Positions 28,881 through 34,701 of a stretch of DNA of 64,000 nucleotides are shown here, one piece after another. The notes under the pieces are model-generated. The model saw nothing but the letters and a program-made list of their open reading frames with translations. It ran no database searches and was not told where the DNA came from. Source of the stretch: Paracoccaceae bacterium. Its GTDB lineage: Bacteria; Pseudomonadota; Alphaproteobacteria; Rhodobacterales; Rhodobacteraceae. Every line of letters begins with the position of its first letter. Positions within the stretch are counted from its first letter, which is position 1. Location of the stretch: assembly GCA_014872815.1 (NCBI GenBank), contig WKFK01000012.1:1-64000 (forward strand), given 5' to 3'. The translations under genes and the position numbers were made by a program.

Positions 28881-29239
28881 TCGTCCATCGGCTTCATCAA
28901 TTCCACGGTCTCGCCATCCCGCACCGCCGTGTAAAAACACGTGCGACGGTTGGTGTGACAGGCCGCGCCGGTCTGCTCCACAAGCACCAAAATGCAGTCC
29001 TGATCGCAGTCATAGCGGAAATCGACCAACTTCTGCAGGTGGCCCGAGGTTTCGCCTTTGATCCAAAACGACTGCCGCGAACGGCTCCAATAGGTGACTT
29101 TCTGGGTCTCCAACGTCTTTGCCACGGCGTCGGCGTTCATCCACGCCATCATCAGCACTTCACCGCTTTCGCTGTCCTGCGCAATCGCCGGGATCAAGCC
29201 CGCTTCATTGTATTTCAGCGCCTTAGGATCAAATCCCAT
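28877..29239 (-). CDS. hisI: phosphoribosyl-AMP cyclohydrolase
   Basis: HisI opens the adenine ring of PR-AMP in histidine synthesis. The 120-residue single-domain enzyme has MAWMNADAVAKTLETQKVTYWSRSRQSFW, the metal-binding DCDQDCI and the C-terminal zinc cysteine region TGAACHTNRRTCFY. HisE is not fused. The start has GAGGGAC upstream. Its stop overlaps the convergent gluQ gene by 4 bp. Confidence 0.96.
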   Translation of the reverse strand: MGFDPKALKYNEAGLIPAIAQDSESGEVLMMAWMNADAVAKTLETQKVTYWSRSRQSFWIKGETSGHLQKLVDFRYDCDQDCILVLVEQTGAACHTNRRTCFYTAVRDGETVELMKPMDD

Positions 29240-29307
29240 ACCATCGTCCCTCTTTGCATCCGCGTTTTTCCTCTCTATCTAGGAAAGGCGCAAAAAAGGA
29301 AACCGTG

Positions 29308-29760
29308 ATGTCCGGCGAAACCGACCTGATCAAGCTCTACTCTGGCCAGATCCTGCAACTCGCAGCGGCCATCCCGCACACCGACCGGTTGGAGGCCCCC
29401 GACGCCACCGTGAAAAAGCGCTCCCCCCTCTGCGGCAGCACGGTGACTGTGGACCTCAAACTCGAAGACGGCCGCATTGCAAGCTTTGGTCAGGACGTGA
29501 AAGCCTGCGCCCTCGGCCAGGCCGCCGCCTCAGTGATTGGTGCCAATGTCCTAGGCCAAGACCGTGACGGCATCGAAGCCGCGCGTGACGCACTCAAAGC
29601 TATGTTGAAAGAAGACGGTCCAACGCCACCTGCGCCGTTTGACGGGCTTGAAGTATTGCGCCCGGCACGGGATTACAAAAATCGTCACGCGTCCATCATG
29701 CTGGCCCTGGATGCCACAGCCGAGGCCTTTGACGCTGCTGAACAAGCCAACTGCGCCTAA
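29308..29760 (+). CDS. iron-sulfur cluster assembly scaffold protein (IscU/NifU-like)
   Basis: The 150-residue protein has the scaffold fold with Cys42 in SPLCGSTVTV and Cys67 in VKACALGQAAAS. The third cysteine that IscU uses (near residue 105) is absent: the matching segment reads ARDYKNRHAS. So the protein may be a variant scaffold or a metal-binding relative rather than a standard IscU. It is a single gene with its own terminator; no isc or suf genes are nearby. ATG 29308 has AAGGA nine bases upstream. Confidence 0.85.
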   Translation: MSGETDLIKLYSGQILQLAAAIPHTDRLEAPDATVKKRSPLCGSTVTVDLKLEDGRIASFGQDVKACALGQAAASVIGANVLGQDRDGIEAARDALKAMLKEDGPTPPAPFDGLEVLRPARDYKNRHASIMLALDATAEAFDAAEQANCA

Positions 29761-29793
29761 ACTCCTTCAAGCCGCAACGACTCAAAGGTCTGT

Positions 29794-29820
29794 AAGCCGC
29801 GCCATTCCAGCGCGGCTTTT
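29794..29820 (+). terminator. terminator of the Fe-S scaffold gene
   Basis: A nine-bp stem AAGCCGCGC/GCGCGGCTT with a seven-base loop, then TT and a T-rich stretch. Confidence 0.8.
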
Positions 29821-30079
29821 CGTTTGCTCCAGCTCAGAACAAAAAAAGCCGCCGCACTTCGCAATGGAAGGCGACGGCAAGCGCAAGCGGTTTTCGCGTG
29901 GGACCCGGGCCATCCGACTTAGGGGGAGGCAGACCCCCAAGAGGACTATGAACAGGCAGTATCAGTCAGGACGCATCAAATGGGGACAGATGCGCGGACA
30001 GACCGGCACGAATTCGCAGGCAGAATTAGAACAGACTCACCTCGTCACACTGGTACAAACACAAAAGTCACATCAAAGT
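29821..30079. other. gene-free stretch between the Fe-S scaffold gene and the 40-residue peptide gene
   Basis: I see no convincing gene here. It holds GGGGG/CCCCC complementary runs around 29922-29940 and an AGAGGAC-ATG start at 29948, whose plus-strand frame runs across the peptide gene on the other strand and looks non-coding (Gln/His/Arg/Ser-rich). A regulatory or antisense RNA to the peptide is possible but not shown. Confidence 0.35.
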
Positions 30080-30202
30080 TCACACAAAACCGGGGACATG
30101 CAGCGCAAGCACCAGCATGATCACCAAAGCCACCCCGCCTACAGCATCCTGCAAAAGCGTGTCGCCAGAGTTGCGCACAACGGATTTGATTTGCTGCATC
30201 AT
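30080..30202 (-). CDS. 40-residue hydrophobic peptide behind a LexA-type box
   Basis: The peptide has a polar N-terminal half (MMQQIKSVVRNSGDTLLQ) and one membrane helix at about residues 21-37 (VGGVALVIMLVLALHV). AAGGAG precedes the ATG pair at the ideal distance, which is the main evidence that the gene is real. Upstream lies GTTCTCAAAAAGTTC, a GTTC-N7-GTTC match to the alphaproteobacterial LexA site, so DNA damage control is inferred. It lies 117 bp downstream of recG on the same strand but has its own upstream region. Small SOS-induced membrane peptides (such as TisB in E. coli) lower the membrane potential; here that is only an analogy. Confidence 0.65.
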   Translation of the reverse strand: MMQQIKSVVRNSGDTLLQDAVGGVALVIMLVLALHVPGFV

Positions 30203-30265
30203 GGTGGGTCTCCTTCCCTTCAGTCTTGTTGCCACTTTGTTCTCATATTGCGCGAGTCGAGTAAA

Positions 30266-30280
30266 GAACTTTTTGAGAAC
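30266..30280 (-). promoter_or_regulatory. LexA-type SOS box, GTTC-N7-GTTC
   Basis: On the minus strand GTTC-TCAAAAA-GTTC, the form known for alphaproteobacterial LexA. A third GTTCTCAAA copy lies 10 bp further upstream (complement of 30281-30290). The site is 64 bp before the peptide start codon. Confidence 0.6.
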
Positions 30281-30319
30281 ATTTGAGAACGTTAAGGGAA
30301 TTTTAGGATTAGACGCCGC

Positions 30320-34701
<4,382 letters not shown>

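Follow-up and report, generated by a model that had tools for sequence, protein, structure and literature searches.

Organization of the locus

Adjoining recG, the window (the whole 64,000-nt stretch of DNA that was analysed) carries a unit in which a GTTC-containing promoter region, a gene for a 40-aa peptide, a structured RNA and a terminator follow one another over about 390 nt (about 30230 to 29841, the start point being inferred; Table 1). The neighbours recG and ligA, named as such in an earlier note on this DNA, were both confirmed with their NCBIfam families, and the stop codon of recG lies a few tens of base pairs short of the promoter region. That note had seen the peptide and a GTTC box; the structured RNA lay outside its coordinates and went unmentioned, and the unit is thus larger than noted. 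Judged from their arrangement in the sequence, promoter, peptide gene, RNA and terminator most likely form one transcription unit, with putative co-transcription of peptide and RNA. A scan of positions 29000-31000 for tRNA and tmRNA genes gave none. Most of the first 48 loci described below also have the convergent SufU-like frame of Table 1 close to the unit.

Table 1. Features of the recG-linked unit and its neighbours in the window
Feature	Position	Strand	Basis and remarks
ligA	32407-34686	-	NCBIfam
recG	30320..32410	-	NCBIfam RecG; upstream neighbour; stop codon 29 bp short of the GTTC array
Conserved GTTC array, GTTCTCAAAT GTTCTCAAAAA GTTCTTTAC, in 10- and 11-bp steps	30261..30290	-	48/48 loci, same spacing
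Operator 1, GTTC-N7-GTTC, LexA-type, GTTCTCAAAAAGTTC	30266-30280	-	Matrix rank 1 of 127,960
Likely core promoter: TTTAC (-35-like), spacer, invariant TGAGAACAAA with the -10	30236..30265	-	Spacing identical in 48/48 loci; register inferred
GANTC in the promoter spacer	30254..30258	-	Sequence
Possible operator 2, GTTG-N7-GTTC, opposite direction	30228..30242	+	Matrix rank 2 of 127,960
Shine-Dalgarno AAGGAG	30210-30215	-	Sequence
Single-helix membrane peptide, 40 aa, MMQQIKSVVRNSGDTLLQDAVGGVALVIMLVLALHVPGFV	30080-30202 (stop codon included)	-	Frame, profile, dN/dS, AlphaFold
Multibranched structured RNA with repeated CUGYCY loops	29879..30023	-	R1 match, 129.7 bits; covariation; fold z
Intrinsic terminator: GC-rich hairpin with one bulge, then U7; ends the unit	29841..29878	-	Sequence, fold
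Convergent frame resembling the Fe-S scaffold SufU family	29317-29760	+	51.7 bits, below the cut-off of 92.5

Two sets of loci were compared. The first 48 were the best-scoring tblastn places of searches in the genus and the family (the window's own genus supplied 20), and recG was found within the shared 3-kb locus in 46. The second set was obtained without the peptide, by searching a named genome collection for the exact DNA pattern GTTCTTTAC-N15-TGAGAACAAA drawn from the first 48 loci; at least 117 stretches matched, of which 80 were examined (the pattern loci; one is also among the first 48). By eye, the names of these 80 loci belong to Rhodobacteraceae, Rhodobacterales or unplaced Alphaproteobacteria. 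Upstream of all 80 lies recG, at up to 400 nt in 79 and at 556 nt in one.

A promoter block with one spacing

The 48 first loci all share the layout GTTCnCAAAT-GTTCTcAaAAA-GTTCTTTAC at a single spacing, followed by 15 variable bases, TGAGAACAAA and mostly CAACAAA. In the window the GTTC-N7-GTTC box stands 63 bp upstream of the ATG (64 bp in the earlier note), and the further copy reported there, GTTCTCAAA, begins at 30290; because it begins 10 bp away, the upstream GTTC pair is spaced N6, not N7. Taken alone the box is weak evidence: the window holds one GTTC-N7-GTTC where 1.71 are expected and its own genome holds 72 matches versus 133 for a reversed control, counts that are not beyond chance, and the case therefore rests on comparison. 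The two upstream GTTCs, which were not part of the search pattern, were nevertheless kept: among the 80 pattern loci (of at least 117), 79 have a GTTC at precisely -11 and 68 have one at -21, against a background of 0.4%. Because of this conservation the box stands above chance, and the chance origin that the counts alone would allow is ruled out; the check suggested in the earlier note, whether box and peptide are conserved together, was thereby carried out and came out in favour of the box.

At up to two mismatches the promoter block occurs in 209 of the 295 family genomes, compared with 10 matches of the reversed control in the whole table. A sigma-70 promoter scan found no classical consensus. 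The possible second operator overlaps the likely -10 and start point; its CAAC is kept in 73 of the 80 pattern loci (of at least 117) and was never GAAC in the 48 first loci, or, in the reading direction of the operator, it is kept as GTTG and was not once GTTC.

The peptide is coding and conserved throughout the family

The 40-residue frame and its AAGGAG are present where the earlier note placed them, and its description of a polar start followed by a single membrane helix agrees with the present results. An AlphaFold model consists of a single helix spanning residues 2-39 (pLDDT 84), the hydropathy maximum is about 2.3 over a 19-residue stretch, and K, R, D and E are absent from residues 20-40, for which reason the helix is read as a plain membrane helix and not as a charged amphipathic one. 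Codon statistics, proposed earlier as a check, were computed on 20 genus sequences: variable sites at the three codon positions numbered 21, 13 and 36 of 40, and the median dN/dS was 0.12, taken over those 99 of the 190 pairs whose synonymous divergence was modest. The same 40 residues occur in six species, any two of which differ by 2-12 synonymous changes and by no non-synonymous one. Because of these synonymous-only differences and the low median dN/dS, the frame is, by the statistics of its sequence, truly coding and under purifying selection.

The search of relatives that had likewise been proposed showed that the peptide is kept: tblastn placed it in 25 of 25 genus genomes and, at E up to 0.1, in 215 of 295 family genomes, and a profile of 39 peptide sequences (A1) raised this to 256 of 295 Rhodobacteraceae genomes (255 of 294 genera), with a single copy in most. 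D19, G22, L34, H35 and P37 are invariant across the 39 sequences, and the D and G are still invariant in 52 wider peptide sequences. Downstream of the promoter pattern the profile matched in 79 of the 80 examined loci (of at least 117), in 76 of them at more than 20 bits, while the remaining locus ends 71 nt past the element; the length is 40 aa in 50 of these 79. Three Paracoccus-named loci (L073, L124 and L141) carry a 31-32-aa form that lacks the polar N-terminal part and scores 5-16 bits, so that its assignment rests on position and motif; the RNA region is reduced in all three, and the 3' region of L073 and L141 is much shorter.

No Pfam family matches the peptide, and the one NCBIfam match is far below its cut-off. 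With a second profile (A2), a search of 385 class genomes yielded nothing convincing outside the family. The eight matches found there at E up to 0.01 comprise five family members and three weak, partial matches inside long frames, and a spread beyond Rhodobacteraceae was accordingly rejected. A mobile origin was likewise rejected, as tblastn with the window peptide at E up to 0.01, a search that distant forms may escape, gave no plasmid or phage match.

A structured RNA follows the peptide gene

After the peptide stop codon comes a conserved non-coding stretch ending in the GC-rich terminator; the conserved RNA lies downstream on the peptide strand and is not antisense. By a simple rule a terminator was present in 118 of 126 loci, and the eight others were excluded from the alignment, leader-fold and loop-motif counts; a strict terminator scan did not report the hairpin of the window. 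When 94 RNA regions were aligned by sequence alone, nothing beyond the terminator and a weak helix emerged, and a model from close sequences was therefore needed. This model, R1, has 149 positions and 41 pairs and was built from 12 sequences, that of the window being one of them. It matches 44 of the 48 first loci (the 12 training sequences and 32 of the 36 others) and 47 of the 80 pattern loci (of at least 117), 33 being without a match. A second model, built from these 47 loci, matches 55 of the 80, the 47 included, with similar covariation counts. With strict filters it gave one match each in 113 of 295 family genomes; within the genus, each of the 25 genomes holds exactly one RNA match.

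In the 47 matched pattern loci, 40 of the 41 pairs change on both sides, with 420 such cells versus 127.6 in shuffled alignments, and covariation reaches 0.493 versus 0.160 shuffled and 0.053-0.089 slid, in an alignment fitted to the model. A sequence-only alignment of the 12 close sequences (A3), scored for a structure that derives from the same 12, gave 0.253 versus 0.157 shuffled; two of its five measures were not clearly above the shuffles, as 47 of 500 shuffles reached its number of both-sides-changed pairs and its pair types were no higher than shuffled. Positions 29845-30024 fold with a z of -3.9. The RNA is 3' of the peptide on the same strand, 5-114 nt away, in all 88 genomes for which both places were listed; for 17 of the other 25 RNAs the place of the promoter was compared, and each of the 17 lies 158-194 nt behind it. 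Across 111 RNAs the motif CUG[UC]C[CU] was counted 373 times, versus 44 in mononucleotide shuffles, and in predicted folds it is 76% unpaired versus 42% overall.

Against Rfam 15, positions 29000-31000 gave one hit, a snoRNA (E 0.36) whose 19.9 bits fall short of the gathering score of 35. A search for structured RNAs in 26 genomes reported Rhodobacterales motifs at cco and cysS genes, and the peptide-linked RNA is not among the motifs of that order noted from this source (PMC8632094). With promoter, peptide and RNA considered together, the unit is almost certainly real and conserved across Rhodobacteraceae.

SgrS/SgrT and RNAIII are dual-function RNAs, and RNAIII has C-rich loops. The recG-linked RNA would resemble them in joining a short ORF and a structured, candidate regulatory part on one molecule; it differs in matching no Rfam family and in having an SOS-type promoter. 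The RNA might be the main product of an SOS-type dual-function transcript, its C-rich loops pairing with G-rich ribosome-binding regions while the peptide is a companion with a minor membrane role. The strong covariation, the repeated accessible loop motif, the U-tailed terminator and the single copy tied to the ORF would all suit such an RNA, but the peptide is the wider of the two (256 versus 113 of 295 genomes, the latter a count that short RNA variants escape), and we regard this arrangement as unlikely.

The GTTC array as a probable LexA site

In Alphaproteobacteria the LexA half-site is GTTC, repeated at one-turn spacing. A matrix was built from nine other LexA-type GTTC-N7-GTTC sites of the window's own genome, all in front of damage-repair genes or plausible SOS genes and six of them at repair or SOS genes confirmed here. 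The family-confirmed genes at the training sites are uvrA, uvrD/pcrA, lexA and those for a PA0069-type radical SAM protein, an IMS-domain polymerase, MmcB (mmcB) and an AlkZ-like protein; recA was placed near its site by its Pfam family, and imuA was named by eye only, without a family match. Twenty of the 72 genome matches and recA were examined and the nine sites were chosen after their neighbours had been seen, so that they do not represent a full regulon. The three best of the 127,960 positions of the window all lie in the peptide promoter, with scores of 14.2, 13.9 and 12.8 (the second and third share one GTTC), the leave-one-out range of the nine training sites being 12.9-24.9. By its 15-base core alone, operator 1 ranks 24th of the 72 genome matches, and it has an A before the second GTTC where all nine training sites have T.

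The LexA site claimed in the earlier note thus stands as a LexA-type array that is conserved with the peptide and takes the top matrix ranks, whereas the box alone is within chance and its core is modest. LexA control of the peptide promoter, as predicted from these sequence features, is probable. In Dinoroseobacter shibae, LexA sites are named at lexA, recA, dprA and others, and the peptide is not among the LexA targets noted from that study (PMC6473078).

Instead of LexA, another regulator might read the array, for example one of cell-cycle control with CcrM/GcrA, which would put the unit outside the SOS response. Both operators deviate from the canonical site, and across the 48 loci conservation of the promoter block goes beyond the GTTC units themselves, to more positions than the binding of LexA alone would call for. 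GANTC, furthermore, occurs in 32 of 127 distinct spacers versus 4.7 expected from shuffling, mostly at two positions just after TTTAC; the spacer sequences are related, and the excess is therefore not to be read as a probability. The copy in the window we take to be a CcrM-type methylation site, and the enrichment is a hint, from sequence, of possible cell-cycle control on top of SOS. GTTAA is present in 33 of the 127 distinct spacers. A match to lexA was found in 282 of 295 family genomes, and eight of the 13 genomes without one still carry the peptide, so that a loss of the peptide along with lexA is not borne out; the peptide is missing from five of these 13 versus 34 of the 282 others, a difference of little weight because most of the 13 genomes are fragmented (one of them, G093, is rated 100% complete). 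On the other side stand the one-turn GTTC spacing and the nine-site LexA matrix, which singles out the peptide promoter in the window. The consensus of the regulator DriD, ATACGAC-N7-GTCGTAT (PMC12340889), is moreover absent from the window at up to three mismatches, and DriD was rejected as the reader of the array. A regulator outside the SOS response therefore appears rather unlikely.

Elsewhere in the same genome, LexA-type sites precede the AlkZ-like gene (L053), the gene of the ligase-associated endonuclease pdeM (L058) and the PA0069-type radical SAM gene (L064), which are candidates for further SOS genes. Another high-scoring LexA-type site (L056, C14:150798), the fifth of 72 by its core, adjoins a frame that by eye looks ferredoxin-like and an OB-fold frame whose resemblance to the end of DnaE2 was likewise judged by eye.

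Leader, 3' region and their possible roles

The predicted leader has a median length of 29 nt (118 loci, counted from the predicted start point). For the window transcript, the predicted fold has the start region base-paired to the 3' part, which would suit a structured 3' region whose sole role is to stabilise the peptide mRNA or adjust its use, for example through fold-back onto the ribosome-binding site. Such pairing was predicted in only 18 of 118 loci, however, while the start region pairs locally in 98, and an RNA that hides the ribosome-binding site was rejected on this count; with the conserved loop motif also left unexplained, a purely tuning 3' region seems improbable to us. The RNA could be either a regulatory part of the transcript or a stabilising tail, and the former is favoured because the loop motif is repeated and exposed. 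The chance that the 3' RNA acts as a regulatory RNA derived from the peptide transcript is, in our estimate, only a little short of even.

Comparison with known SOS peptides

Neither small SOS membrane peptides nor dual-function RNAs are new as kinds of molecule. The peptide family, the RNA family and their combination are not described in Pfam, NCBIfam or Rfam, and no description of peptide or RNA was recognised in the open-licence literature, a part of the whole from which subscription papers mostly fall out. The earlier note knew of no described case of this form in the group, which is too wide if the group is Alphaproteobacteria: SidA of Caulobacter crescentus, 29 aa long, is described as an inner-membrane inhibitor of division that is induced in the SOS response and interacts with FtsW (PMC4211646), and constitutive SidA expression is reported to lead to filamentation of lexA mutants in Caulobacter (PMC12700426). 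Compared by description, the recG-linked peptide is like SidA in being alphaproteobacterial and very short, with one membrane helix and expected LexA-type control; in contrast to SidA it is longer (40 aa), family-wide and fixed beside recG, and is followed by a conserved structured RNA. DidA, which belongs with DriD to an SOS-independent damage checkpoint described in Caulobacter (PMC4211646, PMC12340889), is likewise a damage-induced small membrane division inhibitor, damage induction being a proposal for the recG-linked peptide, which differs in having no DriD consensus in its window. YneA of Bacillus subtilis and SosA of Staphylococcus aureus have been described as SOS-induced division inhibitors, YneA reportedly interacting with FtsW; they belong to another phylum and are set beside the peptide by description.

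The earlier note had drawn its analogy from TisB, whose E. coli system, TisB/IstR-1, shares with the recG-linked unit a LexA-type box and a small single-helix peptide. This much of the analogy holds; the rest is less well supported, since the predicted leader is short, the membrane part is uncharged, the conserved RNA shares the strand of the peptide gene, the peptide is conserved in most genomes of Rhodobacteraceae and no plasmid or phage match was found. TisB depolarises the inner membrane (PMC8145889), and a TisB-like SOS toxin that favours persistence in this way is quite improbable here, for although small helix and box would fit, no antisense RNA was seen (in the conserved regions), the membrane part has no charged residue and the invariant Asp and Gly and the wide presence better suit a specific protein partner.

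A proposed damage checkpoint in one transcript

None of 80 family genomes matched SulA (PF03846), with E. coli as a positive. Given that no SulA was found there, that Caulobacter uses SidA and that the peptide is a small membrane helix with invariant residues under a LexA-type array, the peptide is most simply read as an SOS division inhibitor that works in the way of SidA. By analogy with SidA, we tentatively propose, at less than even odds, that it is a membrane-inserted inhibitor of division acting through contact with the divisome; the joint claim of LexA control and a checkpoint-type peptide, which draws on sequence and analogy, likewise falls somewhat below an even chance.

In the mechanism that we consider the best explanation, LexA bound to the GTTC array, and perhaps also to the inverted site over the -10, would repress the promoter until DNA damage occurs. 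The peptide would then insert in the inner membrane with its N-terminus inside and delay cell division through contact with a membrane protein of the divisome, in the manner of Caulobacter SidA. The 3' RNA, which has a U-tail and exposes its CUGYCY loops, would work as a regulatory RNA, either as part of the same transcript or after being cleaved from it. To this complete reading, in which one LexA-controlled RNA is both the mRNA of a checkpoint peptide and a regulatory RNA whose CUGYCY loops bind several mRNAs or a protein, we give a probability of about one in three.

If it is true, a single transcript would let DNA damage stop division at the membrane and at the same time reset gene expression. 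A covarying RNA without an Rfam entry travels here with an SOS-type gene, and since peptide and RNA lie in one unit, a checkpoint and a damage-linked RNA can be tested in one strain. For Rhodobacteraceae, a family that includes the marine roseobacters and the Rhodobacter laboratory models, a damage-induced stop of division is not explained by SulA, and the unit offers a checkpoint candidate that most genomes carry once and that can readily be deleted.
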